Positions 47,819 to 64,000 of a DNA stretch of 64,000 bases are shown here, one piece after another. Source of the DNA: Turneriella parva DSM 21527 (GTDB lineage: Bacteria; Spirochaetota; Leptospiria; Turneriellales; Turneriellaceae); assembly GCF_000266885.1 (NCBI RefSeq), contig NC_018020.1, positions 3,410,001 through 3,474,000 on the forward strand, in the 5' to 3' direction. The notes under the pieces were generated by a model, which saw only the letters and a program-made list of their open reading frames with translations, was not told the DNA's origin and made no database searches. Each line of letters begins with the position of its first letter. The stretch's first letter is position 1. The position numbers and the translations under genes are program-made.

Positions 47819-48084
47819 GCCATGCCTATGCGTGGCCGAAAAATAGAAGAGATACTGTGTGCAGTCGAGCTTGCGGCTTGCTATTTCGATGAAGATTAGA
47901 GTTTGGCGACTGGCGCAAGCACGACTGCTCGGTGGGCGCTCCTGGTTTCGAGGTTCGTGAGCGTCAGAAATCCTGCTATTTGTTCGAATTCGGTATTGCG
48001 GCTTCGCAGGCCACGCATCGCGAGCTTGAAAGCAATAGGCCCCTGCCCGATCGATGCGACGTCGCGCTCGCGAGTCGGCACGGC

Positions 48085-48277
48085 GGGCAACAGATTTTAC
48101 AAGCTGCGCCGCCATTCGCTACGCGAAAGGCGTGCTCGGTCTCGGCGACGAAGATGCGTCGACGCCCGCAGCTCAGTTGAGCTTTATTGGCGGGCGCGCC
48201 GCAGTCGCCTTCGACACAATTTGGGTTGCGCCGAAGACGGCACACCCCAAATCGTCTTGTAAAATCTAACGTTAGCT
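48085..48277 (+). repeat. attC-like site 4 (193 bp)
   Basis: GGGCAAC at 48085. The right box is GTTAGCT (48271), which belongs to the next cassette and so does not match the left box. This mismatch is expected in an integrated array where the neighbour is a different cassette. Confidence 0.8.
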
Positions 48278-48297
48278 GCCATTAGTGTCGATTTATG

Positions 48298-48323
48298 TTG
48301 ACATCCCCGCCATCCTTGGCGGG
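48298..48323 (+). promoter_or_regulatory. Conserved cassette leader: TTGACA plus hairpin (cassette 5)
   Basis: TTGACA followed by a CCCGCCA-TCCT-TGGCGGG hairpin (48306-48323), ending exactly 12 bases before the GTG start of the ankyrin gene. The same arrangement is found in cassette 10 (60253-60279), with a stem one pair different and the same TCCT loop. The TTGACA may be a -35 box, but no good -10 is seen at 17 bases. Confidence 0.55.
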
Positions 48324-48335
48324 CATCAAATCTTA

Positions 48336-48842
48336 GTGCAATTTTCTCATGTCAAATCACTTGGCTTGGTTTCATTTTTTTGCTGCATGTGCCGCGGCGC
48401 AGAAATAATAATACCACAATCAGAACTAGCTGAAGCCGCGCATGACTGTAACCTAGACCGAATAAAAACCCTACTGTCCCAGAATGTAGATCCAAATCAA
48501 TTTGATTCCCAAGGTGATACTATTCTGAACATTTCTACTCGCTGCGATTCTGGTGTAACAAAATACCTTATAGAAAAGGGCGCAAATCTGTCCTTAAAAT
48601 CCAAGGAGGGCTCCCATACAGCATTAATGAGCGCAGCTTTTTGGGAGAATGAACAAACCGTGGATTTACTAATTCGATATGGAGTGAATCCTTTTGATGC
48701 AGATGACATTGGCATGACTGCTCGACAGAGAATTGAATCCTATATGTTAAAAGAAGGTTCTACCCGGAAATATAGAAAAATTGTGAAAAGGCTTCAAAAA
48801 TATGAGATTCAGTTTGGCGCCCCAAAAAGCCCTTCAAGGTAG
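48336..48842 (+). CDS. Ankyrin-repeat protein (cassette 5)
   Basis: 168 residues from GTG 48336, chosen because its distance from the leader hairpin is the same as for the cassette 10 ATG. The short N-terminal hydrophobic segment (LGLVSFFCCMC) could be a signal or lipobox. Then three ankyrin-type repeats: ELAEAAHDCNLDRIKTLLSQNVDPNQFDSQGDT, YLIEKGANLSLKSKEGSHTALMSAAFWEN, QTVDLLIRYGVNPFDADDIGMTARQ. The protein probably mediates protein binding. AT-rich codon use unlike the backbone. Followed by a TCCGGCC-type region and its attC-like site. Confidence 0.8.
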   Translation: MQFSHVKSLGLVSFFCCMCRGAEIIIPQSELAEAAHDCNLDRIKTLLSQNVDPNQFDSQGDTILNISTRCDSGVTKYLIEKGANLSLKSKEGSHTALMSAAFWENEQTVDLLIRYGVNPFDADDIGMTARQRIESYMLKEGSTRKYRKIVKRLQKYEIQFGAPKSPSR

Positions 48843-48916
48843 AAATAAAATACCCCCAATAGTTTCGACTCCGGCCTCCGTGCCGAAGTCGATTATTACA
48901 GTGCGACACTAACGGC

Positions 48917-49132
48917 AGCTAACAAAATTTACCTGCTGCGCTCCCTGCGGTGCCGTGGCTCCTCGGGTGCTCGGCCCTACGCGCCAAAGATGCCCTGCGC
49001 CCGGCCAAGCGGGAGCTTGGTTTTGCCGGGCTCGGGCAGGCGCTTCGGGCACATTTGGTGACGCTAAAGGGCTTTACAGGCTGAAATAATGACACAAGCG
49101 TCACCAAAAGTCAGGTAAATTCCGCGTTCTAA
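48917..49132 (+). repeat. attC-like site 5 (216 bp)
   Basis: AGCTAAC-AAA-ATTTACC at the left, GGTAAAT-TCCGC-GTTCTAA at the right. Spacers of 3 and 5 bases on the two sides break the symmetry as in attC. GGCAGCTAAC matches the cassette's own start GTTAGCTGCC over 10 bp. Very similar to sites 8 and 10, including the inner TTGGTGACGC/GCGTCACCAA stem. Confidence 0.82.
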
Positions 49133-49678
49133 GCCATTGCCTAGCGTCGCGAAGAGAAGCATTACCACTAAGAGCGCCTCATCATTGCACGACATTTCCA
49201 AGCTTGAAAGCTAGTCGTGTAACGACTGCTACAATTGAAGATCGCGACGCTCCGCGATCGCTGCAGAATTTCACACCGGCTTATTCGCAAAACCCGCTAA
49301 GAGTTATCGGCGCGATGGATCAGGTTTCGCCTCGCACTGCGTTCGCGAGTTTAGGTTTATTCGTACGCGGCGGGAATTAGCGAGAGCTCGCGAACTCCGC
49401 TTTTTGCAGACCTCGCGCCGCTCGTCAGGTAAAGTGCGGGTTTTGCGAACACGCCACGACCTGCCCCCAAGCGATCGCTTGACGGCAACGGCTTAGAACA
49501 AATTTTACAAGCTGCGCCGCCATTCGCTTCGCGAAAGGCGTGCTCGGTCTCGGCGACGAAGATGCGTCGATGCCTGCGCTCTGTCGAGCTTAGTTGGCAG
49601 GCGCGCCGCAGTCGCCTTCGACACAATTTGGGTTGCGCCGAAGACGGCACACCCCAAATCGTCTTGTAAAATCAAGCG
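49127..49678 (+). mobile_element. Cassette 6: no gene recognised, structured
   Basis: 552 bp. No convincing ORF on either strand. Contains GATCGCG-ACGCTC-CGCGATC, and TTCGCAAAACCCGC (49287-49300) facing GCGGGTTTTGCGAA (49437-49450). Homologous along most of its length to cassette 7, which keeps both stems. Could encode a structured RNA. Confidence 0.65.
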
Positions 49679-49684
49679 TTCTAT
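49493..49684 (+). repeat. attC-like site 6 (192 bp)
   Basis: TTAGAAC-AAATTTTACAAGC at the left and CTTGTAAAATC-AAGC-GTTCTAT at the right. The middle is nearly the same as sites 1-4. GGCTTAGAAC pairs with the cassette start GTTCTAAGCC. Confidence 0.8.
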
Positions 49685-50255
49685 GTCATTGCCTAGCGTC
49701 GCGAAGAGGTAGAAAGGCCGAAGAGCCCTTCGTCATTGTAAGCTCCTTCCAGGTTTCAACGCGGGTTGTGTAACGACTGCTACAGATGAAGATCGCGACG
49801 CTCCGCGATCGCTGCAAGAGTTTTACCCAGGCGTATTCGCAAAACCCGCGAAGAGTTGTCGGCGCGATGGATCAGGTTTCGTCTTGCGCTACGTTCGCGA
49901 GCCTTCGTTCATTCGTACGCGGCGGGAATTACGGAAAGCTTGCGAACTCCGCTTTTCGCAGACCTCGCGCCGCTCGTCAGGTAAAGTGCGGGTTTTGCGA
50001 ACACGCCACAGCCCTGCCCCCCAAGCGACCGCTTGACGGCAACGACATAGAACAAATTTTACGCGCTGCGCCGCGACCACTGCGTTGGGTCGCGTGCTCG
50101 GCCCTGCGCGCCAAAGATGCCTTCGTCGCACAAACGGGACGTTTGTTTGGTGCTCCTCAGGCAGGCGCTCCGGGCACATGCGCTTCGCGTAAAACGCAAT
50201 GGTTGAAATGCAAAACACTTTACACCCGCAGGCGCACGTCAGCGTAAAATTAACG
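49679..50255 (+). mobile_element. Cassette 7: homologue of cassette 6, no gene recognised
   Basis: 577 bp. Shares with cassette 6 the opening TCATTGCCTAGCGTCGCGAAG-like region, the GATCGCGACGCTCCGCGATC hairpin and the TTCGCAAAACCCGC/GCGGGTTTTGCGAA pair, but carries a different attC-like site type (B). An ORF of 153 codons (49786-50247, plus) spans it, but it runs through the attC-like site and is not conserved in cassette 6. Confidence 0.65.
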
Positions 50256-50261
50256 TTAGGC
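50047..50261 (+). repeat. attC-like site 7 (215 bp)
   Basis: ATAGAAC-AAATTTTACGC at the left, GCGTAAAATTAAC-GTTAGGC at the right. GACATAGAAC pairs with the cassette start GTTCTATGTC. Confidence 0.8.
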
Positions 50262-50296
50262 GCCATGGGCATAAATATTTTTGGTTTACCAGGAAC

Positions 50297-50980
50297 ATGA
50301 TATCGATCTTCAGAGAAGAGTTTCCTACTGCGCTTGGTACTTTTGAGATAAGTATTTTAAGTACTGATTCAGATGCTAAAGCATCCGATGCCGCGTCAGT
50401 TAACAAAGATGTTATTAACGTCACTTCGCGATCATACCAGATTACGATATTCAGACAATTACTTGACTTAAACCTTGGGAATAACTCCAGTGTTTTAAAC
50501 AGAGTAGCTTGGTGCTTATTTTTCCAAAAGTCTCACTCAAACTACGAAAAATTGAAAATTCGGCTTGAATTGAATTCCCACGATCAAGAGATTACTCAAG
50601 GCCCGAGCTCAGGTCAATATCTTGATGCGATTTCATACAATGACTCAAAGTACCAAATACATTTAGGCACAGAGGACGGTGAAGTACTAATGGAAAGAGC
50701 AAAGGCAAGAGATTGGCTGCCTTTTCGGTATTCGAAATACCTAAATTTCGATACTCAAACACGAAACATTCACATTGGTAGCTTTACCGAATACACAGAA
50801 AGAGGCTTTTTAACCCGAGTACCTAATCTGCGTCCTGGAGAGAAAGCCTATTTTCATTTCATTCTTGCTGGGAAGCATTATGATGAAGATAACGTTGATA
50901 CGTGGTTAGCAGTAGACATGAGTAAGAAGCAGCTTTTAAGAGATTACACGAATATTTTACCGAATGCCCACGGCGCCTAA
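50297..50980 (+). CDS. Hypothetical protein (cassette 8)
   Basis: 227 residues, ATG preceded by CCAGGAAC. No signal or TM, mixed alpha/beta. The sequence has SYQITIFRQLLDLNLGNNSSVLNRVAWCLFFQKSH and YFHFILAGKHYDEDNVDTWLAVDMSK. No family recognised. The stop codon TAA is within the left box GCCTAAC of the attC-like site, so gene and site are tightly joined. AT-rich compared with the backbone, suggesting transfer. Confidence 0.75.
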   Translation: MISIFREEFPTALGTFEISILSTDSDAKASDAASVNKDVINVTSRSYQITIFRQLLDLNLGNNSSVLNRVAWCLFFQKSHSNYEKLKIRLELNSHDQEITQGPSSGQYLDAISYNDSKYQIHLGTEDGEVLMERAKARDWLPFRYSKYLNFDTQTRNIHIGSFTEYTERGFLTRVPNLRPGEKAYFHFILAGKHYDEDNVDTWLAVDMSKKQLLRDYTNILPNAHGA

Positions 50981-51188
50981 CAAAATTTACCTGCTGCGCT
51001 CCCTGCGGTGCCGTAGCTCCTCGGGTGCTCGGCCCTGCGCGCCAAAGATGCCTTCGTCGCACAAACGGGACGTTTGTTTGGTGCTCCTCAGGCAGGCGCT
51101 TCGGGCACATTTGGTGACGCAATTTGGCTTTACAGATTGAAATAATGACACAAGCGTCACCAAACGTCAGGTAAATTCCACGTTGTAC
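50975..51188 (+). repeat. attC-like site 8 (214 bp)
   Basis: GCCTAAC-AAA-ATTTACC ... GGTAAAT-TCCAC-GTTGTAC. GGCGCCTAAC pairs with the cassette start GTTAGGCGCC. Nearly the same as sites 5 and 10. Confidence 0.82.
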
Positions 51189-51278
51189 GCAATACCGCGC
51201 CAAGAGGTAAGAAGTTAGAAAGACCGGGAGGTTATGTGATCGATCGCGCCCCCAAGAGCGCCCGGCGTCCATGCCGGT

Positions 51279-51449
51279 CGCGAACGGGGCATTTACACGA
51301 CGTTTTGGCTGGAGGCGTCTTCGCCGCGCAGACCCGAGTACGCGCGACGAGCGAAGCGAGTCTCCGTCTTCGGTGGAGCCCACGGCACCGCAGTCGAACC
51401 TGGCGGTCATCGACCGACAGGCAAGCGCAGAGTGTAAATTTTGTTCTCT
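51279..51449 (-). repeat. Inverted attC-like site (171 bp)
   Basis: On the minus strand: AGAGAAC-AAA-ATTTACAC ... GTGTAAAT-GCCCC-GTTCGCG. The 3- and 5-base spacers match the other sites, but the orientation is opposite. It lies 90 bp from site 8, tail to tail, and directly downstream of the minus-strand diiron gene. The expected partner start (complement of its left box, GTTCTCTGCAG) was not found on the minus strand further up the region. Confidence 0.7.
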
Positions 51450-51534
51450 GCAGTGGAGTGGCTTAACCGGAATTTTACGGAAGACTTGTTTTGCCATGGC
51501 AGGCGAAACAAGGTTATGCAGAAATTGAGCGGTA

Positions 51535-52647
51535 TTACCTGATCAGGTCTTCTGCCGTCAAATGATTGGCAGATTTGCCATGCTCAAATTTCAGTATCCC
51601 CAACTGTTCGTATTTTGGTCTGATACGATCAGATAAAAGGCCTATCTCTTTAAGGTTTGGCACCATGCGGGTAAAGAGCTGAGTTCTGAAATCTTGCATG
51701 ATTTCGGATGTATCAACCATCTTCAACCACGCATTTCGGCTGATACCGTGTGCGAAATATTCTTCATAGATTTCCATAAATTGGAAGCGATTGCGCAGAA
51801 GTACGGATACTTCATAGGCCCAATCCTCCCGATCCCGACGTTTGCTCTCAGATATCTCTTTTGTGAAATAATCGCGCAATGCTACGACGCCGTAATGCAC
51901 ATGGCGAGCTTCATCGGCGATCACCAGCTTCAACAGTTCTTTGAGTAAGGGTTCATGCGTGTGTTTATAGATCATGCCAAAAGCACCCAGCGCCAGGCCT
52001 TCAATCATAATCTGCATTCCCAGAAATTTTAGGTCCCAGTCTGAACCGGCTGTGATGGAACGCAAAATGACAAACAGGTTATCGTTCACATGGTACAATT
52101 TTTTCAATTTTGTAAGCAGATACTTTGAGAATACTTCGACATGACGGCCTTCATCGACTACCTGCGTTGAACCGTATAACTTGGCATCAAACCACGGCGT
52201 TGCTTCAACCGTTTCACCCGCGATGTACAGTGCACCCTGTTCGCCGTGCAGAAACTGTGAAAGCATCCAGCTGATCGTCGAATGGACAATTTCTTCACGC
52301 TTTGATTTATCTTTCGGATAAAATGACTCACCGAAACCCGGTACAAATTTTTCAGGAAAAATCGGTTTTTCCAGATTTGCTGTATCTACGTTGGCAGTCC
52401 AGGGCAGGTCTTCTGCATCCCATTGCGCTTTGTAGGCGCGGCGGTACAGTTTCTTAAATTCGGGATTGCCAGTATTTTCGTATGTCCAGTCGTAAAAGAC
52501 TTCATGCCCGGATGCAATTTTAAGTGTATTACTTTTCCCCCCATTAAGTACATACCCTGCAACCGCCGACGGCATTAGGTCAAGCGCGACCCTCGGGTTG
52601 CGTCCGATCATGCCCCCGATCGCGCTTACATCATCTGCTAAACTCAT
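51535..52647 (-). CDS. Ferritin-like diiron oxygenase
   Basis: 370 residues. The metal ligands of a diiron four-helix protein are visible: E136 (HGEQG), E166xxH169 (DEGRH), E216 (MIEGLAL) and E246xxH249 (DEARH). The order is that of R2-like and AurF-like oxygenases, which oxidise or hydroxylate amino or acyl substrates. Substrate unknown. The last gene of the minus-strand trio, after acyl-CoA dehydrogenase and a thioesterase, so lipid or acyl-thioester metabolism is likely. It is directly upstream of the inverted attC-like site. Confidence 0.8.
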   Translation of the reverse strand: MSLADDVSAIGGMIGRNPRVALDLMPSAVAGYVLNGGKSNTLKIASGHEVFYDWTYENTGNPEFKKLYRRAYKAQWDAEDLPWTANVDTANLEKPIFPEKFVPGFGESFYPKDKSKREEIVHSTISWMLSQFLHGEQGALYIAGETVEATPWFDAKLYGSTQVVDEGRHVEVFSKYLLTKLKKLYHVNDNLFVILRSITAGSDWDLKFLGMQIMIEGLALGAFGMIYKHTHEPLLKELLKLVIADEARHVHYGVVALRDYFTKEISESKRRDREDWAYEVSVLLRNRFQFMEIYEEYFAHGISRNAWLKMVDTSEIMQDFRTQLFTRMVPNLKEIGLLSDRIRPKYEQLGILKFEHGKSANHLTAEDLIR

Positions 52648-52701
52648 AAATCCCTCCTGAATTTTTTAATTTTGTTGAATTGAGAACTTGCATATGATTG
52701 A

Positions 52702-54444
52702 TTAAGCCGCGATAGATAGTGCAATCTGAACACCACCAAGATAGCGGCGACTGAGTGCCGAAAAGTACTTGGCTATGCGAGCTTTATCAGCCGCAATGCT
52801 GAGTTGTTTTTCAGCGGCAATTTGTGCCTGCTGGCACAGTAGGATATTGCAGAACAGGTAAGCAAAGGCGGTAACCACGTCAATTGCGAGCGCTTCTTTT
52901 CCTGCCCGATCTTTATATACTGGTACTAATCGTATGAATTGATCAAAATCTGACTCGAGTTGTTTGCGGTTGTCGGCTTCGGGTAGTTTGCCAATTTCTG
53001 CGCTGATGTATTCGTACAAAATCCCCCCGAGCCGACTACCTTCGACAATGGCCCCAATCGCGGCGACTGCCTGCAACTGTGTTGTGCCTTCGTAAATTGT
53101 GGTAATGCGGGCATCGCGGTAGATGCGCGCAATATCAAACTCTTCGGTATAGCCGGAACCTCCGAAAATTTGTAGCGCATGGTACGCCACTGTATTGGCT
53201 GATTCTGAATTAAACAGTTTCGCCGTGGGGGTGAGCAACTTTGCCAGTTTATCGAGCCTGATAATCTCCGGCCGCTTACGAATCGCTCGTTCAGCCTCAC
53301 CTTCGCGGACGAGTTTTTTAACTAACCCATCATAGTGATCCACAACCTCGCAGGCACGATACGCCAATGCTCGCATCGCGTGGACATAGGCTTCGTTGTC
53401 GTCGAGAATGCGCTTCACCGGCGGCAAGTTTTCAATGGTATTGCCAAATTGGACGCGCTCGGCGGCATATTTCTTACCTTCTTCGTATGCGGCTTGGGCG
53501 ATGCCGACCGACTGAACCGCGATGCCCATGCGGGCACCGTTCATCATTTGGATCGCATATTTGACGAGACCTAAGCCTTCTTCACCGATGAGCTGCGCTT
53601 TGCTTTTTTCAAAAACAATCTCGCAAGTTGGGGAAGTATGCAAACCCATCTTTTCTTCGATTCGGGTGACTTCGATTTCATCGCTGTGCACCAGAAAGAA
53701 GGATAAGCCCTTTGCGCCGGGACCGGCACTGCGCGCCAGAGTCAGTATCATACTGGGGCGCTCGTTTAAGCCGCAGGCATGGGTAATAAACCGCTTTGTC
53801 CCTGTAAGAGTCCAATTACCATCATTGTCTTTTACAGCCTTCGTTGTGACGCGCGACAGATCACTACCGTAATTGGGCTCGGTCAATGCCATGGCACCAC
53901 ACACCTCGCCAGCCGCCATTTTCGGAACCCAGGTCTTAATCATATTTTCGTCACCGAAACGCTCTATCACTTCGGCCAGATTAAAGCAACTGGCACTGAT
54001 TCCGAAGGCGACGTCGGCGCGGCTCAGCATTTCAAAAACTGCGCTCGAACCGGTCAAGTTCATTTGCAGACCACCGTTCTGGCGTGATATGTTGGTACCG
54101 AGCATGCCGGATTTTACTATCAGATCGACAATGCGCTGTGTATCGGGCGGAAAATTGACTTTTCCGCTGACCAAATGGATGCCATGCTTTTCCATCGCGC
54201 GCGCAGAAGGTGAAATTTCTTCACCACAAATTTTGCCGATCTGTGACCAAACGGCGGCATACCCCTCAAGACATTCAGCCGTGCTCGCAGGGGCAAACTC
54301 CAGTAGCTTGTTGCCATTTTGCTTGAATGCGGCTGCATCAACAAAGCCCTGCTCTTGCAGCGGGATCAAAGTTTCCCAATCAACAAAATGTTCAATATTA
54401 AATCGTAAATCCGCATTGTCTTCAAAGTAATTGCCCTTGATCAT
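52702..54444 (-). CDS. Acyl-CoA dehydrogenase
   Basis: 580 residues. FAD-binding motifs MALTEPNYGSDLSRVTTKA and ALTGTKRFITHA-like WTLTGTKRFITHACG, then QFGNTIENLPPVKRILDDNEAYVHAM; catalytic Glu in ARITTIYEGTTQLQAVAAIG. Domain order is the normal one, with a C-terminal extension of about 130 residues that suits the FadE5/ACAD long-type. It oxidises acyl-CoA. 32 bp downstream of the thioesterase gene, so an operon. Confidence 0.92.
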   Translation of the reverse strand: MIKGNYFEDNADLRFNIEHFVDWETLIPLQEQGFVDAAAFKQNGNKLLEFAPASTAECLEGYAAVWSQIGKICGEEISPSARAMEKHGIHLVSGKVNFPPDTQRIVDLIVKSGMLGTNISRQNGGLQMNLTGSSAVFEMLSRADVAFGISASCFNLAEVIERFGDENMIKTWVPKMAAGEVCGAMALTEPNYGSDLSRVTTKAVKDNDGNWTLTGTKRFITHACGLNERPSMILTLARSAGPGAKGLSFFLVHSDEIEVTRIEEKMGLHTSPTCEIVFEKSKAQLIGEEGLGLVKYAIQMMNGARMGIAVQSVGIAQAAYEEGKKYAAERVQFGNTIENLPPVKRILDDNEAYVHAMRALAYRACEVVDHYDGLVKKLVREGEAERAIRKRPEIIRLDKLAKLLTPTAKLFNSESANTVAYHALQIFGGSGYTEEFDIARIYRDARITTIYEGTTQLQAVAAIGAIVEGSRLGGILYEYISAEIGKLPEADNRKQLESDFDQFIRLVPVYKDRAGKEALAIDVVTAFAYLFCNILLCQQAQIAAEKQLSIAADKARIAKYFSALSRRYLGGVQIALSIAA

Positions 54445-54475
54445 TTTTGAACCTTATGGCACCCGTAGCGTTGTG

Positions 54476-55027
54476 TCATGCCTTGCCCGCTTCAAGAATT
54501 TGCGATACCGAATGACCATTTTGCCGCATTTTATTGAACGACGCAAATTTTGAAAAACGCTGGTGCGACTGAATCAGAAGCGCTTCGGGAATGCGGATAA
54601 AGACTGCCGTCGCAGAAGTATACAGTTTACCCTCGGCGTCAAATATCTGCCCTACGGTATAAATCCGTCTGGTATCGATGCGTTCTGTTTTACCGGCGCA
54701 ATAGAATGTCTGGTTGAGGGGGATGGATTTTCTGAGCGAGACGTTGATATTTGCCGCGAGTACGGGATAGCCGTTGCACCAAGCCGCACCGCCCATGGCT
54801 TCGTCGAGAATCGCTGAAGTAAAGCCGCCGTGGACGTGATCGGGCGGGCCTTCGGCGTTATCGCCCATGCGCATTTCCATCAGCAGCATGCCGGTGGCTT
54901 CGTGAAAATATTGCCTGCTTTCAATCAAGTCGGTCGAGTGGGACATGAAGCGCGATATGGCATCAGGAATATGTGTCGATTCCGCAATGCATGCCGAAAT
55001 ATCCTGAATATCAAATAAGGTTTTCAT
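54476..55027 (-). CDS. PaaI-like thioesterase
   Basis: 183 residues. Hotdog-fold thioesterase: MRMGDNAEGPPDHVHGGFTSAILDEAMGGAAW with the HGG..AxxDE motif. Short N-terminal region. It probably cleaves acyl-CoA. First gene of the minus-strand trio and divergent from the TetR gene, so likely controlled by it. Confidence 0.88.
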   Translation of the reverse strand: MKTLFDIQDISACIAESTHIPDAISRFMSHSTDLIESRQYFHEATGMLLMEMRMGDNAEGPPDHVHGGFTSAILDEAMGGAAWCNGYPVLAANINVSLRKSIPLNQTFYCAGKTERIDTRRIYTVGQIFDAEGKLYTSATAVFIRIPEALLIQSHQRFSKFASFNKMRQNGHSVSQILEAGKA

Positions 55028-55222
55028 TTCTCCGGCCTCAGCGAGGCGCGGGCTGTAGTTCTTGCTTTTTTCATATTTTAGTATGTGCTAAATTAAAACA
55101 TGGCGTCAACAAATTTCCCCCCTTCTGGCGCCTGCAAAAAACGCCAGCCCATACCCCTTCATCTTGACGAATCTTAAAGAACTTGCCTGCGGATAAATAA
55201 TCACGACCTTGCCGCATAATTC
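55028..55222. promoter_or_regulatory. Divergent promoter with candidate TetR operator
   Basis: 195 bp between the thioesterase and tetR genes. TTTAG-TATGTG-CTAAA (55077-55092) is an inverted repeat of the size bound by TetR-family repressors, lying in AT-rich DNA about 50 bp from the thioesterase start. A second hairpin CTGGCG...CGCCAG is at 55125-55147. Confidence 0.45.
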
Positions 55223-55846
55223 ATGGTGCGAGATAAAAAAGGAACGCTGCCGACCGCGCCCAAAAAGAGGGTATGGAACAGAACAGCCAAGACCCGTATG
55301 AAAATCTTAAACGGCGCGGCCGTGGCTTTTTCCGCCCGCGGTTACTATGGCACAAGCCTCGTCGAGCTCAGCAAGCGAACAGGCGCCGAACAGGCCAGCA
55401 TCTACTACCACTTTCAAAGCAAAGAAAACCTCTTCAAGAAATGCCTGATTTATACGCATTTAATGGTCATCAGGGGCCTCAGGCGCGATTTGAACCGCAC
55501 TGAAGGGCTCAGGGAAGAGCTGGTGTCGATATTTAATACCCTGGCGAATTATTCAGATGTCTATCCGGAGAGGATCGCCCTAATATTCCAACTTGTATAT
55601 TCGGCCCCTAAGACCATAGCGGTATTCTACACGAGAAAATATGGCGGTAATTTCCGATCACTGATAGAAGCTGCATTCGATCGAAATCCGCCGAAAAGCG
55701 GGAGGGGGGTAAAGCAATCCTTGATGATTGACATGCTCTACAGCTTTATCCTAAGTCTTTCAGCGCCGGCCGTACGCAATGACAGGCGACTGATGGCGCC
55801 CCGTGCCGTGGATTTTATTCTACAAGACAAAATTCATCCAAATTAG
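55223..55846 (+). CDS. TetR-family transcriptional regulator
   Basis: 207 residues. HTH at about 25-70: RMKILNGAAVAFSARGYYGTSLVELSKRTGAEQASIYYHFQSKENLFKKCL. C-terminal ligand-binding domain. It is divergent from the acyl-CoA genes and probably represses them in response to an acyl-CoA or fatty acid. A genuine ATG start (GTGCGAG follows). Confidence 0.9.
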   Translation: MVRDKKGTLPTAPKKRVWNRTAKTRMKILNGAAVAFSARGYYGTSLVELSKRTGAEQASIYYHFQSKENLFKKCLIYTHLMVIRGLRRDLNRTEGLREELVSIFNTLANYSDVYPERIALIFQLVYSAPKTIAVFYTRKYGGNFRSLIEAAFDRNPPKSGRGVKQSLMIDMLYSFILSLSAPAVRNDRRLMAPRAVDFILQDKIHPN

Positions 55847-55896
55847 AGTATTTAATAAATTATTGACTGACTGAATCGAATGCCATAGGTGCCCCT

Positions 55897-57051
55897 ATGG
55901 TTCAGCTGCGACAGGTAAATGAGCAAACCAACACAGAAATATTGCTTGGCTTTCAGCACACGGTCGGCCGTCACTGCGGCTCCACTTCGCTACAAGACGT
56001 CGTCAACTATGGCGGTTGGCCGCTCAGCGAAGCGGCCTGTTTTGGGCTCGCTTCTGGCATGGCGCACTATTATAAATCCGCGGCTGCCGAAATTCCGCTT
56101 GGCATTTTTATGGGGCGATGCCGTGACCTCGAAAACAATTTCTTAAAAAATTGTGAAATTGACTTCGAGCGAATCGAGTTTAAGACTTTCACAGATTTAG
56201 AAGCGCATATTCAGCAGAAAATCCAAGCGGGTGTTCCTGTACTCTTGCAAGGCGATGTCGCCGGGTTGCCCTATTATAAATCACCCATGCATTTTCCCGG
56301 GCATAAGTTCGTCGTTTGTGGTTACAATGATAGAAAATACACCATTGCAGATACCGCGTTTGCTGAACTACAGGTCGTCTCGGCGCAAGATCTTGATAAA
56401 TGTACAGCCTATTCAAATGCGATGTGGGCTGGAGCGTATACGGCTTACGATCTCGGGACATTACCCGAGTTGACGGTCGACCTTGGTGCAAAAGCAGTCT
56501 CACGCGCTATTTATCAGCAAATCCGTGAGTTGTCTTCTTCAGGTGAGGCTTTTTTTCTTTCGTGGCATCGTGCTCATGAAGCGTGGTTAAGCAGCTCTGA
56601 TTTCACCTCCCAGGCAGACGACAAAGATTTCGCCCTGGGCGGCCGTTTTTTTTATCAGGTGATAGAAAAACGCGGCACGGGGGGCGGGGCGTTCAGGGGG
56701 ATTTATCTCGATTTTGTGAATGAACTCGTAAATGATCGGGTTTTTCCCTTTCCTGTTTTGCAGAAAATTTTCAGCTCGCAGGGGCGAGCGCTGGAATTAC
56801 TGGCAGATTTGCAGAGGTCGGTTCGCTTGAGCCGCGAGAGGCTTTCCAAGATTGCAGATTTCTATAAGATGTTGGCTTTCAGGAAAATTACGCGCGGCGA
56901 CGCAAAGACTCAGATCCGCAGGCAGCTAAAGAATCTCTGGCATTTTGAGCGAAGTACAAACGACATTCTCTGTTTGCTGGCGACGGAGTTTGTGCCTGAT
57001 TTTCAGATTTCGGGTGAAATATTCAAGATTACACAACGGAGGATTTTATGA
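55897..57051 (+). CDS. BtrH-like / DUF4872 protein
   Basis: 384 residues. The N-terminal half resembles BtrH N-terminal (PF14399) proteins, relatives of C39-type cysteine peptidase folds and of acyltransferases in butirosin synthesis: GRHCGSTSLQDVVNYGGWPLSEAACFGLASGM with Cys and His, and GVPVLLQGDVAGLPYYKSPMHFPGHKFVVCGYND. The C-terminal half matches the DUF4872 type. It is 4 bp overlapped with the next gene (ATGA), so co-translated. It may transfer an acyl group from a carrier protein. Confidence 0.75.
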   Translation: MVQLRQVNEQTNTEILLGFQHTVGRHCGSTSLQDVVNYGGWPLSEAACFGLASGMAHYYKSAAAEIPLGIFMGRCRDLENNFLKNCEIDFERIEFKTFTDLEAHIQQKIQAGVPVLLQGDVAGLPYYKSPMHFPGHKFVVCGYNDRKYTIADTAFAELQVVSAQDLDKCTAYSNAMWAGAYTAYDLGTLPELTVDLGAKAVSRAIYQQIRELSSSGEAFFLSWHRAHEAWLSSSDFTSQADDKDFALGGRFFYQVIEKRGTGGGAFRGIYLDFVNELVNDRVFPFPVLQKIFSSQGRALELLADLQRSVRLSRERLSKIADFYKMLAFRKITRGDAKTQIRRQLKNLWHFERSTNDILCLLATEFVPDFQISGEIFKITQRRIL

Positions 57052-57893
57052 AAAAATTAGAAAAGATTGCACATGCCGGCAGGACAAAGCTTACGGTACG
57101 GAAGCTAAAACTCGAATACCCTAACGGCGTGCCGCGGCATTGGCTGAAACAAAGCGGCTTGTTGACACATGTAATGAACTCGCTAAGCCTTATGTTTCCC
57201 GAAGGTGAACGCTTTTTTATCCGGAGCGTCAATCGTTTCGCCAGCCAAACGCACGACGAAACGCTGCGCGAAGCCATTAAAGATTTTGCAGGTCAGGAAA
57301 CACAGCACGGTAAGCAACACGAAAAATTCAATACCTTTTTGAAGCAGCATGGTTACGAGTATGAGCGGTTCATTGCAGGCGTGGAAAATTTTGTTTTTGA
57401 GGAGTTCGAACCTTTTATGACTGAAAAGGTATGGGATAAAATAGGTCTTTCAGTCACCGCTGCGGCGGAGCATATGACGGCCACGTGGGCTGCCCATTTT
57501 CTTAAGAATCGTGCGGCGCTGGCCGACGTACCGGAAGAAATCCGTGCCTTATTTCTCTGGCATGCGGTCGAAGAAATTGAGCACAAAGATGTGGCATTCG
57601 ACCTGCTCCAGGATGTAGACGACAGTTATTTCACCCGCATGGTTGGCCTCGGCTTTATTGCCGTCGGCGTACCGCTGTTAATCGGAATTATTGCAACTCA
57701 TTTCATTAAGCAGGATGCAACGCTTACCAGGGTCGATTTGATAAAGGATATACCCAAATTATTCTTCGAAAAAGAAAGTCTTGGGCGGATGTTTGTGGCG
57801 TCGTGCGTCCAATACTTGAAGCCGGATTTTCATCCGCGCGATATCAAGGATGAACACCTCATCCATGACTATCTTCAACGGCAAAGCGCCTGA
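57048..57893 (+). CDS. PF10118-type metal-dependent hydrolase-like protein
   Basis: 281 residues. PF10118/COG3687 pattern: FPEGERFFIRSVNRFA, FAGQETQHGKQHEKFN, TAAAEHMTATWAAHFL and WHAVEEIEHKDVAFDLL; E and H residues suggest a diiron four-helix bundle. One C-terminal hydrophobic segment (LGFIAVGVPLLIGIIATHF) may anchor it in the membrane. It is the second diiron protein of this region. Confidence 0.85.
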   Translation: MKKLEKIAHAGRTKLTVRKLKLEYPNGVPRHWLKQSGLLTHVMNSLSLMFPEGERFFIRSVNRFASQTHDETLREAIKDFAGQETQHGKQHEKFNTFLKQHGYEYERFIAGVENFVFEEFEPFMTEKVWDKIGLSVTAAAEHMTATWAAHFLKNRAALADVPEEIRALFLWHAVEEIEHKDVAFDLLQDVDDSYFTRMVGLGFIAVGVPLLIGIIATHFIKQDATLTRVDLIKDIPKLFFEKESLGRMFVASCVQYLKPDFHPRDIKDEHLIHDYLQRQSA

Positions 57894-57930
57894 TATGAAT
57901 GGATCATTTTTTGGCCAAAGGGTGCTTCAG

Positions 57931-59177
57931 TAGTGTTCGGTAGAAAGTAAAAATATCGCTGTTTGACCCGTGTCCGAAATTTATTGGGAATTGCAAAACA
58001 ACCAATAAAACGGGGGATCAAACGCGATGGGACATCAAAATACAAGCTTTTCACAACTGCAACGACAATTCGACCGACATGAGTTCGGCGCACTGGCGCA
58101 AAAACACTTCAAGGCAAATTCCGGGCGGCGCCTGACCCACTGGGGGCATTTTTCGTTTTGGATGTTTGCTCTTTTGACCAAGGCTAAGTCGCTGCGGTTT
58201 GCTGTGGAGCAATTGAATGCAATGCCTGAAAAACTTTACCATATGGGTTTTAAATCGGTCAAACTGAGCACAATTTCGGAAGCAAATTCGAAGCGATCTT
58301 ACGAATTCTATCGATCATTATTTTTTGTGATTTTTTATCGGTTGAAAAAATCGCTGCCACGAACAGTGCAAAAAGCAATTCGTGTTTTGGATTCAACAAC
58401 GATTACTTTTAGCGACACCCGCTTTAAGTGGGCAAAATTCCGTTCTTCTAAAAAAGGCATCAAAGTGCATGTGCTATTCGATCAGCAGAACGAGATTCCA
58501 CGAAATCTGAAAATCACAAATGCGAATAGATCCGATGTAAAGTTGGCGCACCAATTTTCGTTTCTGAAGGGAATCATTTACGTTTTTGATCGCGCCTATA
58601 CAGACTTCAAATTATGGCGAAAAATCCACGAAAATAAGGCTTTTTTTGTGATTCGGGCCAAAACAAATCTGCTTCTGACGACACTGAAATCCGAAATCAT
58701 ACATGATGTTCCCGGCGTTTTAGAAAAGCAAACAGTAGCGTTGTTGGGTGATGTAAAAGGTGAGTTCGGTGAGCATCTGTTTTTATTTCGCCTTGTGGAT
58801 ATTAAAACCCAAAAGGAAATCAAAGTAATTACCAACAACCCGAAACTCTCTGCCGAGGAAGTTTCTGATATTTATCGCAAGCGCTGGAGTATTGAAATTT
58901 TCTTCAAGTGGCTGAAACAAAATATCCAGGTGAAACGCATGTATGGAATATCCGAAAACGCCGTGAAACTTCAGATTTGGCTTGCAATGATTCTTTATAT
59001 CTTACTCTGGCAAATGCACCATGTAACTGTCCGCACCAAGACAAAATTTACCGAATTTCTCCGAGCGTTCCAAGCCCGTATTGTCTTATCCATTCAACCA
59101 AGAAAGCCCGTCGTCGGCCAATCGCCGCCGAAAACCAACCCCCAGCAAGCCAGATTCGAATTTTCTGCCGAACACTA
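57931..59177 (+). mobile_element. IS4-type insertion sequence
   Basis: 1247 bp. Terminal inverted repeats TAGTGTTCGGTAGAAA (57931-57946) and TTTCTGCCGAACACTA (59162-59177), one mismatch. It carries one transposase gene whose stop codon ends one base outside the right repeat. No target duplication is seen, and only the 3' part of a doxX gene lies to its right, suggesting a deletion at insertion. Confidence 0.8.
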
Positions 59178-59178
59178 A
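58027..59178 (+). CDS. IS4-family transposase
   Basis: 383 residues. DDE residues: D in VLDSTTITF, D in VFDRAYTD, and the YREK signature YRKRWSIEIFFKWLKQNI (Y-2-R-3-E-6-K). The N-terminal part (FSQLQRQFDRHEFGALAQKH) is the DUF4372-type region common in this group. The frame is intact. Confidence 0.92.
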   Translation: MGHQNTSFSQLQRQFDRHEFGALAQKHFKANSGRRLTHWGHFSFWMFALLTKAKSLRFAVEQLNAMPEKLYHMGFKSVKLSTISEANSKRSYEFYRSLFFVIFYRLKKSLPRTVQKAIRVLDSTTITFSDTRFKWAKFRSSKKGIKVHVLFDQQNEIPRNLKITNANRSDVKLAHQFSFLKGIIYVFDRAYTDFKLWRKIHENKAFFVIRAKTNLLLTTLKSEIIHDVPGVLEKQTVALLGDVKGEFGEHLFLFRLVDIKTQKEIKVITNNPKLSAEEVSDIYRKRWSIEIFFKWLKQNIQVKRMYGISENAVKLQIWLAMILYILLWQMHHVTVRTKTKFTEFLRAFQARIVLSIQPRKPVVGQSPPKTNPQQARFEFSAEH

Positions 59179-59382
59179 TGACTCACTGCTGCTATCTTAT
59201 TTCTTATTCCCCGAACATCATCATTAGGAGTTTTATTATTAAGTGCACATATGGGCGGTGCGATCGCCACACACATGGAACATGGCGAAATGTATTTGCC
59301 GCAAGCAATTATTTTGTTGCTGGTTTGGGGTGCTAACTATTTGCGCAATCCAGAAATGCTAGATTCCTTCACAAAACAGTAA
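59179..59382 (+). pseudogene. doxX-like gene remnant, 3' part only
   Basis: Frame reads AAILFLIPRTSSLGVLLLSA then HMGGAIATHMEHGEMYLPQA and ILLLVWGANYLRNPEML, typical of the end of DoxX-like membrane proteins. The 5' part is missing: the IS right end is directly adjacent and no doxX N-terminus is found left of the IS. Confidence 0.75.
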
Positions 59383-59397
59383 TCTAGGAATAATTTT

Positions 59398-59859
59398 ATG
59401 CTAAAAATCGGTGATCTTATTCATGACTTTACGGCACCAGATCAACTCGGCAAGCCCATGACGCTTACGAATTTGCTGCAAGGTGGCCCGGTCGTAATCT
59501 TTTTCTATCCCCGTGCTATGACTGCGGGCTGTACCGCGCAGAGTTGCCATTTTCGGGATTTAGCACAAGACTTTCACGCAGTGGGTGCGTCAATAGTCGG
59601 CATCAGTAGCGACAGCGTCGAGCGGCAGGCAACGTTCGATCAAAAGCACAGATTCGGATTCCCTTTACTCTCTGATCCCGACCGAATAATCGCAAAACAA
59701 TTCGGGGTAAAACGCCTTGGGCCATTATTTAACCGGCGTGCTACGTTTGTCATCGGTAAAGATAGTCGGGTAATACAGGTGATTGCAAGTGAGCTCAGTA
59801 TGAGTAAACACGCGGATGTCGCGATTGAAACGCTTAGGCATCTGCCTAAAAGCACTTGA
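59398..59859 (+). CDS. Peroxiredoxin (BCP/PrxQ-like)
   Basis: 153 residues. Thiol peroxidase with peroxidatic C45 in TAGCTAQSC and C50 five residues later, as in 2-Cys PrxQ proteins; FYPRAMTAGCT replaces the usual YPKDFTPGCT. It reduces peroxides using thioredoxin. It is 15 bp after the doxX remnant, likely once in one transcription unit (oxidative-stress pair). Confidence 0.88.
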   Translation: MLKIGDLIHDFTAPDQLGKPMTLTNLLQGGPVVIFFYPRAMTAGCTAQSCHFRDLAQDFHAVGASIVGISSDSVERQATFDQKHRFGFPLLSDPDRIIAKQFGVKRLGPLFNRRATFVIGKDSRVIQVIASELSMSKHADVAIETLRHLPKST

Positions 59860-59900
59860 GCTCTGCCTGCAACTTACGGGAACCCACACCGTCAACTCAT

Positions 59901-59930
59901 GCCACCGCTTGTGGGCGCACAAGCGGTGGC
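59901..59930 (+). terminator. Strong hairpin after the peroxiredoxin gene
   Basis: 13-bp stem GCCACCGCTTGTG / CACAAGCGGTGGC with loop GGCG, about 40 bp past the peroxiredoxin stop and before attC-like site 9. No T-run follows. Confidence 0.6.
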
Positions 59931-60009
59931 CCGCCTCCGCCCTCGTGGCTCCGGCGGGAAATGGGGCGCGAGAAGACCAAGAAGCAAAGCCGAAGAGGCG
60001 CGGTACTGC

Positions 60010-60233
60010 GTACAACAAAATTTACCCGCTGCGCTCGCTGCGGTGCCGTGGCTCCTCGCGTGCTCGGGTCTGCGCGGCAAAGATCGCGGACGGCGCGCAA
60101 GCGGGACGCTTGCTTTTGCGCGCCGCCGCGAGCCGCTCCGACCACATTGATGGTGCTTAGTATGTGGCTTTTCAAGTAAGCCCGGCTTTATTGCGTGGCG
60201 CACCATCAACGTCGGGTAAATTCCACGTTAGCT
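60010..60233 (+). repeat. attC-like site 9 (224 bp)
   Basis: GTACAAC-AAA-ATTTACCCG ... CGGGTAAAT-TCCAC-GTTAGCT. Its left box, with 13 further bases, matches the start of the cassette at 51182 (19 of 20). Confidence 0.8.
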
Positions 60234-60252
60234 GCCATAGGCGCTAACATGA

Positions 60253-60279
60253 TTGACATCCCCGGCCATCCTTGGCCGG
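60253..60279 (+). promoter_or_regulatory. Conserved cassette leader: TTGACA plus hairpin (cassette 10)
   Basis: TTGACA, then CCGGCCA-TCCT-TGGCCGG (60262-60279), 12 bases before the ATG. Counterpart of 48298-48323; the stem sequence differs, the pairing and loop do not. Confidence 0.55.
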
Positions 60280-60291
60280 CCTCTATTTAGA

Positions 60292-61116
60292 ATGGGTGTA
60301 TGGGGGACTGGGATTGCTTCGAATGATGTCTTTAAAGATATTTATGGCGAATTCTTAGATAAATTTAATCAAGGCGCGCCTGTCTCTGAAATTACAAAGC
60401 AAATAAGCGCAGCCTATAGTTCGCTTATTGATGACCCTGATGAATCTAATGAACTCTACTTTGCTCTTGCCAAAGCTCAATGGGATTGCGGTTCTCTGGA
60501 TAAAGCAATACTTGAAAAAGTTACAGATCTGATAAACTCAGGTGCTGAATTACAACGTTGGCAGAGTTTGGGAGCTTCGCAGGCTCAGCTCAAAAAGCGT
60601 GAAACAGCAATGCAAGACTTTCTGGCACTAATTAAAGAGCCGAATCCAAAACCCCGAAAGCCGAAGCCTGTTAAATTAGTTAATGCAATTTTTGCAAAGG
60701 GTGACTGCCTGGCTATTCCGCTAACTGATGGTAGATTCGGGGCTGCGCTCGTGTTAGCAGCTGAAGAACAGACTCAGTTTGGTCTTAACCTTCTGGTGGC
60801 AGTAGATTTTCTTTCGGTCGATAAACCGAATGTCCAAGATATCCTGAAAGGGCGTTGCTTAAATAGGCATTTACAAGATATGCAGCCAAGTCCTGATCTG
60901 CAATATTGTTATGCAAAAGATTTTAAGAAATCGAAATATCAAATGGAGAAGATAGGTGAAATTCAGTTTGAAAAACTATTTCTCCCAAAAAATGCACGAT
61001 CAGTCTATGGCCGGTGGGATACTTTTGCTGACGCGATCGCATCTGAAAAGGCGCGAAATACTAATGAACCTGACGCACTGAAAATATCAAAATTTATCAA
61101 AAAAACATGGTTCTGA
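60292..61116 (+). CDS. DUF4259/Imm26-like protein (cassette 10)
   Basis: 274 residues from MGVWGTGIASND, the usual opening of DUF4259-like proteins. From about residue 130 a second domain reads NAIFAKGDCLAIPLTDGRFGAALVLAAEEQ, like the Imm26 immunity-protein family. It could therefore be an immunity or toxin-neutralising protein, or a generic cassette protein of that fold. A longer frame starts upstream (60253) but would read through the leader hairpin. Confidence 0.7.
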   Translation: MGVWGTGIASNDVFKDIYGEFLDKFNQGAPVSEITKQISAAYSSLIDDPDESNELYFALAKAQWDCGSLDKAILEKVTDLINSGAELQRWQSLGASQAQLKKRETAMQDFLALIKEPNPKPRKPKPVKLVNAIFAKGDCLAIPLTDGRFGAALVLAAEEQTQFGLNLLVAVDFLSVDKPNVQDILKGRCLNRHLQDMQPSPDLQYCYAKDFKKSKYQMEKIGEIQFEKLFLPKNARSVYGRWDTFADAIASEKARNTNEPDALKISKFIKKTWF

Positions 61117-61167
61117 TTAACCGTCAAAACATCCGTGTTTTGACGGTTCCGTATGCGCGCCTACGGC

Positions 61168-61383
61168 AGCTAACAAAATTTACCTGCTGCGCTCCCTGCG
61201 GTGCCGTAGCTCCTCGGGTGCTCGGCCCTACGCGCCCAAGATGCCCTGCGCCCGGCCAAGCGGGAGCTTGGTTTTGCCGGGCTCGGGCAGGCGCTTCGGG
61301 CACATTTGGTGACGCAAATAGGCTTTACAGGTTGAAATAATGACACATGCGTCACCAAACGTCAGGTAAATTCCGCGTTGTAC
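61168..61383 (+). repeat. attC-like site 10 (216 bp)
   Basis: AGCTAAC-AAA-ATTTACC ... GGTAAAT-TCCGC-GTTGTAC. GGCAGCTAAC matches the cassette start GTTAGCTGCC. Nearly the same as site 5. Confidence 0.82.
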
Positions 61384-61457
61384 GCAATGCCGCAAGATCA
61401 GAAACCCTCTACTAAAATCATCTTTACGTAGACAGAGATAGATCAGATTTTAAAATT

Positions 61458-62171
61458 ATGGCCACTTATCTTTTTATAGCGAAGCCTGAATATAATCCAG
61501 AGTTAGTCAATAAGACCGAGGGTGCTAATTGGAGTTGTGGCAAAAAGACGAAACCGGGTGACACAGCCTTGGTTTACGTTACCGGCAAAGGAATTTGTCT
61601 TGAATGGCGGCTCGTTTCAAAGCCAAAAGAGAATGCCAGGTGGGGTTATGCCTGCCGAGTCAAGCTCGTCCGCCGCATAGAACCACCTATTTCGTTCCCA
61701 GAGTTACGTGAAAAGATACAATGGAAACCGATAGAGTTAAGGTTCCGCGGCTACAATACATTATCCATACCAGATGAGGTTCTTCGACAACTCGCGAAAC
61801 TAAGAAGAAACATAACGACCGTATTTCAACCTGAGGATGACTCCTTTGAAAAAGACCTTAGAAAATCTCTGAATCTTACTGCGAAAGAGAGGCGAGAGCG
61901 CCTTGCAAAAGCCAAAATTAAGCCTTTGAAGCGCAAATCCACAGCGACTGTTTTTCAACGAAATCCGGATGTTGTCGCAGAAGTACTGGCGCGCGCCAAA
62001 GGCCGATGTGAGTCATGCAAGAAACCAGCACCGTTTAAGCGCGTATCAGATGGGTCACCGTATTTAGAGGTTCATCACCTTATTCGCTTAATAGATGGTG
62101 GCGATGACTCAGTCGCAAACGCGACCGCCTTATGCCCAAACTGCCACAGAAGAATGCACTTTGGTCAATGA
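61458..62171 (+). CDS. HNH endonuclease with N-terminal EVE-like domain (cassette 11)
   Basis: 237 residues. N-terminal part (about 1-110) has FIAKPEYNPELV...WSCGKKTKPGDTALVYVTGKGICLEWRLVSKP, resembling EVE/PUA-like readers of modified bases. C-terminal HNH domain: CESC, YLEVHHLIRLIDGGDDSVANATALCPNCHRRMH (zinc Cys pairs, HH and N). The combination is that of modification-dependent restriction enzymes (McrA-like), so an anti-phage role is likely. Cassette-borne. Confidence 0.85.
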   Translation: MATYLFIAKPEYNPELVNKTEGANWSCGKKTKPGDTALVYVTGKGICLEWRLVSKPKENARWGYACRVKLVRRIEPPISFPELREKIQWKPIELRFRGYNTLSIPDEVLRQLAKLRRNITTVFQPEDDSFEKDLRKSLNLTAKERRERLAKAKIKPLKRKSTATVFQRNPDVVAEVLARAKGRCESCKKPAPFKRVSDGSPYLEVHHLIRLIDGGDDSVANATALCPNCHRRMHFGQ

Positions 62172-62187
62172 ACCGATGCGGCACTGC

Positions 62188-62412
62188 GTACAACAAGATT
62201 TACCTGCTGCGCTCGCTGCGGTGCCGTGGCTCCTCGCGTGCTCGGCCTCCGGTGGCCTGAAATGCGTTGACGCCCGCGCTCTATCGAGCTTAATTGGCGG
62301 GCGCAACGCAGCCACCTGCGGCACATCGATGGCGCGCCAAGAGCGGCTTCCGTAAGAAGACCGTATTTATTGTGCGGCGCACCATCGACGTCAGGTAAAT
62401 CCAACGTTGTGT
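62188..62412 (+). repeat. attC-like site 11 (225 bp)
   Basis: GTACAAC-AAG-ATTTACCTG ... CAGGTAAAT-CCAAC-GTTGTGT. GCGGCACTGCGTACAAC matches the cassette start GTTGTACGCAATGCCGC at 16 of 17. Confidence 0.8.
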
Positions 62413-62449
62413 GCAATGCCGCAAAAAGTTTTTCAAGAGGATAAGATTT

Positions 62450-62956
62450 GTGATTAAAGATTTTGAACGATACAAGAATATATACGATGAGGTAGCAGAA
62501 TATACTTTCATGGATTGGCATGAGCCGCGCTCATTTTTCTCAAAAGAAACTGCACCGAAAATTGGCGAGGTGGGCATATATATTTTCAAAGCCAAAACTC
62601 TAAAGCAATTTAACCAGAAATATAATACAAGAATCCATAGCTCGATCTTCTATGTTGGTCGGACTCAACACCTCCAACAACGCATGCGCGGGCATTTCCG
62701 CGGTGGGGAGGTTGATTCGGCTCCAGTCGCAAAGAAAATTCTAGAGAAGCTGGAACCAAAATTCGCAGGCAAAACCTATAAGGCGTTGGCGAAAGATAAG
62801 ACCTATAAAGCTAAGCTAATCAATCTACAAGCACAGCTAGTTGGGGACATCATGGTTTCTTTTATTGAAGAAACTGATCATCCCAGACAGGCTCTGAAAG
62901 AGATATTATTCTCACTACGCTTCGAATCAGATTTCAATGCATGGCATACTCACTAG
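62450..62956 (+). CDS. GIY-YIG-like nuclease (cassette 12)
   Basis: 168 residues from GTG 62450, preceded by AGAGGATAAG. Contains GIYIFKA and, about 30 residues later, FYVGRTQHLQQRMRGHF, the GIY...YIG-like pair with Arg. No clear second catalytic Glu motif is visible, so activity is not certain. Probably a nuclease of restriction or mobile type. A longer frame (62411) reads into the cassette joint. Confidence 0.75.
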   Translation: MIKDFERYKNIYDEVAEYTFMDWHEPRSFFSKETAPKIGEVGIYIFKAKTLKQFNQKYNTRIHSSIFYVGRTQHLQQRMRGHFRGGEVDSAPVAKKILEKLEPKFAGKTYKALAKDKTYKAKLINLQAQLVGDIMVSFIEETDHPRQALKEILFSLRFESDFNAWHTH

Positions 62957-62965
62957 CGGCACTGC

Positions 62966-63158
62966 ACACAACAAATTTTACAAGCTGCGCCCCTGCGGTG
63001 CCGTGGCTCCTCGGGTGCTCGGGGTTGCGCGGCGAAGATCGTGGATGGCGCACAAGCGGGACGCTTGTTTTGTGCGCCACCACGAGCCGCTGCACCCACA
63101 TTTTGACTTGAAGCGAAGACGCATCAAGTCAAAACGTCTTGTAAAATCCGCGTTGTAT
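62966..63158 (+). repeat. attC-like site 12 (193 bp)
   Basis: ACACAAC-AAATTTTACAAGC ... CTTGTAAAATCCGC-GTTGTAT. GCACACAAC matches the cassette start GTTGTGTGC. Middle region differs from sites 1-4. Confidence 0.8.
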
Positions 63159-63205
63159 GCAATGTGCGAATTTTTTGTTCTTAAAGCTTTAATAAGGGGC
63201 AGCAA

Positions 63206-64000
63206 ATGAATTCAATTCTAGGATCAGCTTTAATCGGCGGCGTTGCAGGATTTATAGGTTTCTTCCTCGCATCACGGATACTCGGTACGCAGCGTAAGAA
63301 AGCTGCGCAGATAGTAGGCCTTATACTTATGTCCGTTTTCACTGCATTGGGAAACGCTTTTATTCTACCAACCTTCAAAGGACAGGATATTAAAGCACAA
63401 TTAAAGCCTTACCTAGAGGATGAAATGACACGTCCCATGGTGGATGCGATTAGAGAATTTGATCCGCCAACTTATGAAGCATTCTTAGATGAAATGACTA
63501 AGATCATTCAAGCGTACCCAAATGGACCGCAAGAAAAGGTAGATTTGCTGGGTAGATCAGCCGGAGCCAGATTATCCGCAAAATACTATCGAGCCGCATC
63601 AGACGATGCACTTCTTGCACATTTATCCAACACTATACGGACAATTAGAAAGCTAAGTGATGTTTCACCAAATAACGGCGTTCGGCTAATTTTTCCGGAA
63701 ACATTCGGCTCAGTGCAGTATACCTCTCTTCCACCAGAGCAAAAAGAAATCATGAAACAATTTATGAGCACCGTACGCGAATTGGTTAGATCATCGATGG
63801 TCAATCCAACCAATAAAGAACATTCCTTTGGCTCATACTACCTTGAAACGTATCGAACCGCATATTTACGCGCCCATCCCGAGCTCGTTCGTCAGTTTTC
63901 TAATCTCAACTCACTTAAAACAGAACCCGAGCAAAGGGACTTCTTGAACAATTTTTCACTCTTTCTGGAGGGGATGCTGAAACTCCCCAAGAAGCAGGCA
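63206..64000 (+). CDS. Membrane protein, cassette 13, cut by window end
   Basis: 265 codons, open to the window edge. ATG with AAGGGGCAGC upstream. N-terminal region has two TM helices (ILGSALIGGVAGFIGFFLA and AQIVGLILMSVFTALGNAFIL), then a soluble domain with EFDPPTYEAFLDEMTKIIQAY and FLNNFSLFLEGMLKLPKK. No family recognised. AT-rich. The right end and attC-like site are outside the window. Confidence 0.7.
   Translation, partial: MNSILGSALIGGVAGFIGFFLASRILGTQRKKAAQIVGLILMSVFTALGNAFILPTFKGQDIKAQLKPYLEDEMTRPMVDAIREFDPPTYEAFLDEMTKIIQAYPNGPQEKVDLLGRSAGARLSAKYYRAASDDALLAHLSNTIRTIRKLSDVSPNNGVRLIFPETFGSVQYTSLPPEQKEIMKQFMSTVRELVRSSMVNPTNKEHSFGSYYLETYRTAYLRAHPELVRQFSNLNSLKTEPEQRDFLNNFSLFLEGMLKLPKKQA

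Follow-up and report, generated by a model that had tools for sequence, protein, structure and literature searches.

A composite 9-kb cassette in a large integron-like array of Turneriella parva, with a second copy in another genus

Integron cassettes are commonly taught as single-gene units. As of 2013, the most genes reported between two attC sites were three (PMC3607928), and the largest array at that time was the Vibrio vulnificus superintegron, with 219 cassettes in about 150 kb (PMC3856429). The additional domain of the integrase is the hallmark by which IntI is recognised (PMC8352920). An extrahelical base in the L arm is a canonical feature of attC sites, and it has been described as such (PMC7790495). 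The genome paper of Turneriella parva does not mention an integron (PMC3746428). Furthermore, in the literature searched, which did not extend to supplements and subscription papers, no paper named T. parva together with an integron, and the lineage was not listed as an integron carrier.

The window studied here is a stretch of 64,000 nucleotides of T. parva DSM 21527 (NC_018020.1, positions 3,410,001 to 3,474,000), whose genome consists of 4,384,015 and 25,287 bp. The integron-like array of this genome spans about 211 kb of the chromosome (G000:C1:3,456,712-3,667,997) and is among the largest described. Compared with the Vibrio vulnificus superintegron, it was similar in cassette number (215 cassettes and at least 216 attC-like sites) but longer, was carried by a spirochaete, and had attC sites of about 180-218 bp and another type of recombinase. 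Like the sedentary chromosomal integrons of, for example, Vibrio and Treponema, it lies in one orientation beside a tyrosine recombinase gene, its hairpins have R''AAC...GTTR' cores with the crossover at G^TT, the cassette starts are complementary to their own R'', and cassettes are transferred as discrete units. The two ends of the same cassette matched at 14 or more of 17 positions in 97.7% of the 215 cassettes, against 8.7% of mismatched pairs, and this complementarity generally extended to position 17-18. In nearly all array cassettes, the start box had A at position 11, where the reverse-complemented end box had G. In addition, the start boxes of the whole array had a conserved G at position 8; this G and the position-11 mismatch (a T-G pair on the bottom strand) were also observed in other families of the class. 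The attC sites within an array were up to about 98% alike. The one-base bulge of the L arm was absent from all 216 sites of the array, 197 of which had at least eight uninterrupted pairs, in a test run without a canonical array as control. A few cassettes were heavily duplicated: a 458-bp cassette with the start box GTTGCCCGCCATGCC, for example at window positions 46436-46894, had 50 copies in the array, and the start box GTTCTATGTCATTGC occurred 26 times. Lone attC-like sites were also observed at a distance from the array, at G000:C1:1045858, 1359861, 2057039 and 2575074, among others.

The ninth cassette of the array was 9,045 bp long, from G^TT to G^TT (51183-60227, plus strand), beginning with the T that follows the G of R' in the preceding site and ending with the G of its own R'. 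It was the longest of the 215 cassettes, followed by cassettes of 8,439 and 5,281 bp, and the median was 818 bp. The R' GTT of the preceding attC (50979-51184, plus strand) forms the left crossover point, and the cassette's own attC (60014-60229, plus strand) folded far better on the bottom strand than shuffled sequences did (z -4.3). Both read on the plus strand, GTTGTACGCAATACCGCGCC (the start box, 51182-51201) and GGCGCGGTACTGCGTACAAC (the end box at the R'' flank, 59997-60016) constitute an inverted repeat of 95%, with 19 of 20 positions paired and a single mismatch at position 11 (A versus G in the reverse complement). No other cassette end matched the start box at more than 16/20, and no other start matched the end box at 16/20 or above; on the 17-position scale, the own pair scored 17 and the best other match 15. 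Matching own ends are a rule of the array, and yet the match was also specific to this pair. Two criteria of an integron cassette were thereby fulfilled, namely a start complementary to the own R'' and G^TT limits with one attC at the 3' end. Apart from a reversed site at 51283-51445, no further attC was found inside the cassette on either strand.

The first-pass annotation had proposed that boundaries 9 kb apart pair at 19 of 20 bases, and that the unit was among the largest cassettes or else a cassette into which an operon island had been inserted. The pairing held, with limits exact from G^TT to G^TT, and both halves of the second statement were supported. The match would have been refuted as coincidental if the end boxes were common elsewhere in unpaired combinations, which was not so for these boxes. 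The match was not coincidental, because the boxes do not recur unpaired and a second genus has the whole unit with identical ends, between other neighbours. The word integron requires a caveat, since the IntI additional domain is missing from the recombinase beside the array.

The second copy was found in JAGRNJ010000104.1 (L092) of the metagenome-assembled genome (MAG) HKST-UBA14 (G009; Leptospiraceae), which belongs to the same family as T. parva and to another genus. The two copies had 23 differences in 9,045 bp, or about 99.7% identity. On the left, differences were present again up to 51179; on the right, they set in at 60230. These limits are the G^TT cores, and both flanks of the unit differed between the two genomes. 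The attC of the left-hand neighbour in the MAG was of another type, with little likeness to the left-hand attC of the window. This contig is not a stray piece of the T. parva strain studied here, because its left flank was not found in the T. parva genome and the attC of that flank has an 86% relative on another contig of HKST-UBA14. As a yardstick of vertical descent, recA of the two genomes was 73% identical in DNA and 77% in protein. It follows that the unit was transferred recently as a single cassette, since the identity is confined to the G^TT limits, the flanks differ and recA is at 73%. The 9,045-bp unit is thus mobile as a discrete unit between the arrays of two genera; the evidence is comparative only, and excision is untested. 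The attC of the unit was like those of the genus Turneriella (95.8% to a site in G006), and this likeness suggests the genus Turneriella as the donor side, with the direction not shown. A weakness of the comparison is that the second copy stands on a short contig (9.6 kb, coverage about 6) of a MAG of 170 contigs that is about 88% complete. An undisrupted outer cassette, with the truncated gene and the peroxiredoxin, was searched for in 61 genomes and not found; only the same composite was present in HKST-UBA14.

The cassette differs from usual integron cassettes in having about eight genes, an inverted attC and its own regulator. It starts with a leader (51183-51282, plus strand), 28 bp of which were found again in the leader of a G006 cassette. 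On the minus strand follow an AurF/R2-like putative diiron oxygenase (51535-52647), an acyl-CoA dehydrogenase (52702-54444; Pfam PF00441, PF02770, PF02771) and a 4HBT-family thioesterase (54476-55027; PF03061). Divergent from this lipid operon, on the plus strand, are a TetR-family regulator (55223-55846; PF00440), a BtrH-like (DarH-related) putative acyltransferase (55897-57051; PF14399 and PF16169, with NF053550 below its cut-off) and a PF10118 predicted metal-dependent hydrolase (57048-57893), which was 99% identical in G009:C5 and 69% in G009:C156. An IS4-family insertion sequence (57927-59181, plus strand; transposase 58027-59178, terminal repeats 19/22) comes next, then a 3' gene remnant cut by the IS junction (59239-59379, plus strand) and a peroxiredoxin of the AhpC/TSA (BCP/PrxQ) type (59398-59859, plus strand; PF00578), which was probably the original cargo of the outer cassette. 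The AurF-like gene had weak PF11583 and NCBIfam matches, the former below threshold (22.4 bits, cut-off 29.6); it had a 91% identical copy in JAGRNJ010000084.1 (L093) of HKST-UBA14, a 74% identical chromosomal paralogue in its own genome and chromosomal relatives across the class. The insertion sequence was present as a single copy both in the T. parva genome and in the MAG, and had no target-site duplication. The GC content of the cassette genes was 46-50%, in line with the rest of the array (48.9%) and lower than that of the neighbouring chromosome (53.6%); the IS4-family element had 42%. Expression from internal promoters, for acyl-chain modification, is probable, as inferred from the gene families. 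No match was found to plasmids, nor to Rfam within 45000-64000, and no PADLOC defence gene was detected among the five proteins scanned.

Concerning the genes that the first-pass annotation had named, the acyl-CoA dehydrogenase, thioesterase, TetR, BtrH, PF10118 and peroxiredoxin calls held on Pfam evidence, and the diiron oxygenase held only in part, on the sub-threshold AurF match. The doxX identity of 59239-59379 was unconfirmed and was rejected as unsupported, as there was no Pfam match. The transposase and the reversed attC had been overlooked. The first-pass annotation had also proposed a comparison of GC with the other cassettes, in which the genes of the 9-kb cassette resembled those of the rest of the array.

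Across the 211 kb of the array, the attC at 51283-51445 (minus strand) was the only one found in reversed orientation; it lies directly after the AurF-like gene. Its R'' box was a normal member of the end boxes of the array, and its R' side was not. On the minus strand, neither the window nor the array yielded a mate with the start box GTTCTCTGCARTGG, so the edge of the embedded cassette opposite the reversed attC has been lost. The leader motif at the insertion point of this site was not shared by other cassettes of the array. The contig L093 carried the same six genes, with 74% DNA identity in the oxygenase-dehydrogenase-thioesterase part, and there, too, an attC comes after the AurF-like gene, oriented relative to it as in the window. 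The two attC sites were 92% alike over 36 nt of the 3' arm and had a terminator-like hairpin in common. The lipid block is probably an older cassette, because the reversed attC follows the operon and the homologous operon in L093 has an attC in the same relative orientation. It is inferred that this older cassette was probably embedded backwards in the outer peroxiredoxin cassette.

The gene adjoining the start of the array encodes an IntI/Xer-like tyrosine recombinase (45166-46266, minus strand). Between it and the first cassette lies a presumed attI region (46400-46437, plus strand, with GTT at 46435), inferred by position only. Unlike the integrases of integrons, the recombinase lacks the IntI additional domain: its alignment with IntI4 continued on either side of a gap covering that domain, and it scored 190 bits against TIGR02249 (cut-off 265). 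The spacing between GLRVSE and HSMRH was 93 residues, compared with 133 in 17 of 18 Spirochaetota IntI and 182 in the other one. The 19 homologues aligned from other genomes likewise lacked the domain. Cassettes obeying the same end-box rule stood beside homologues in G005, G006, G015, G017, G018, G031 and G034, and arrays beside this recombinase type occurred in four families, that of the window included. In the other genomes no array was found near the recombinase gene, and in several the contig ends at the gene. No TIGR02249 match above the cut-off was found in the whole T. parva genome or in the sampled genomes of the class; such matches occurred in 26 of the 247 genomes sampled from the phylum, all 26 outside this class. 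In the tree, the 20 recombinases clustered together (92/83) next to the IntI group (100/99); the outgroup consisted of only three Xer sequences, two of them long-branched. The clade is class-wide in Leptospirae, lacks the I2 domain and, with so few outgroups, appears to be sister to IntI. That the recombinase moves the array cassettes is inferred from its position. Strict membership among integrons is not met, because the additional domain is missing. A bolder reading, which may as easily be wrong as right, is that Leptospirae have integron-like systems whose recombinase is sister to IntI and never had or has lost I2, whose attC-like sites lack the L-arm bulge, and which can mobilise 9-kb clusters between genera; if so, no product of such a system would be clearer than the 9-kb cassette. 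The domain missing here is thought to have enabled integrons, and the order of events in their origin would thus become testable.

As a whole, the best explanation, which we consider likely, is that the segment is a true mobile cassette, composite in structure and belonging to an integron-like system, with an inverted older lipid cassette inside. The outer cassette would have been small, consisting of the leader, the truncated gene, the peroxiredoxin and its attC. The older cassette would consist of two divergent operons, one with the AurF-like, acyl-CoA dehydrogenase and thioesterase genes and the other with TetR, BtrH-like and PF10118; it probably entered inverted and still carries its own decayed attC. 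The IS4-family element sits at the expected other edge of the insert, and an IS-linked deletion probably removed that edge, as inferred. Judging from the junctions, movement would most likely proceed by excision as a circle, in which the complementary ends of about 18 nt would close one long attC arm; in this view the circle junction would be GTTGTACGC joined to the cassette's own R'', and the circle would integrate at a G^TT of another array. Against this explanation, excision has no circle and no read-level or experimental evidence in its support. Moreover, synthetic excision tests reached about 3 kb, with excision falling as length increased (PMC5371416).

Among the other explanations, a role of the insertion sequence in the first entry of the island or in shaping the cassette interior remains possible. 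With the other edge missing, an inverted site-specific insertion cannot be distinguished from an IS-mediated or homologous rearrangement. The element resembles the IS4 family in its transposase and terminal inverted repeats at 57927-59181, but differs in being a single copy, in lacking a target duplication and in not standing at the borders of the mobile unit. A composite transposon that carried the lipid genes into the array, with incidental attC ends, is very improbable. The lipid block does have one IS4-family copy at its right edge. However, each genome has one copy, inside the unit and none at the left edge, so the requirement of two flanking IS copies is not met, and the limits of transfer are the G^TT points of attC rather than IS ends, which refutes this account for transfer of the whole unit.

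Homologous recombination between the attC repeats of two arrays, instead of the array recombinase, is feasible given the likeness of sites within an array, but it can hardly explain the transfer: the left-hand attC of the MAG is of a different type from that of the window, and identity breaks off at the core G^TT rather than at some point inside an attC. The fusion of several cassettes through loss of internal attC sites has in its favour the reversed attC and the fact that wide gaps between attC sites can stem from missed or lost sites. It is nevertheless most unlikely, since outer ends matching at 19/20 are not expected from the merging of different cassettes, no further internal attC was present on either strand, and the entire unit moved to another genus with identical outer ends and precise shared junctions. 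Contamination of the MAG by a Turneriella strain, to which its fragmentation, incompleteness and the 99.7% identity might point, is scarcely credible, given the flank missing from T. parva and its attC match to another contig of HKST-UBA14, the second lipid operon of 74% identity in the same MAG, and the fact that a contaminant strain would still show the cassette between other neighbours.

Overall, the 9-kb cassette is real, mobile on comparative evidence, composite and larger than usually described, while its excision and the role of the recombinase are inferred. Integron-like systems can hence move gene clusters and not single genes alone, and one cassette can be nested in another. That a cassette with several genes and a regulator of its own has crossed a genus boundary intact means that arrays can spread whole pathways.

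Two further large segments were observed. In JAGRNJ010000084.1 (L093:70-13612), 13.5 kb lay between two attC sites with no convincing internal site, containing lipid operons together with an AcrB-type pump, a fatty acid desaturase and a SpoIIE phosphatase; it was considered as an even larger cassette, and its ends agreed over 11 nt only. The second-largest cassette of the T. parva array (8.4 kb; L016:4483-12739, equal to G000:C1:3594483-3602739) carried three fatty acid hydroxylases, methyltransferases, AraC- and ArsR-type regulators and a nucleotide cyclase. Since this cassette is also multi-gene and contains fatty acid hydroxylases, large lipid-themed cassettes may possibly recur.
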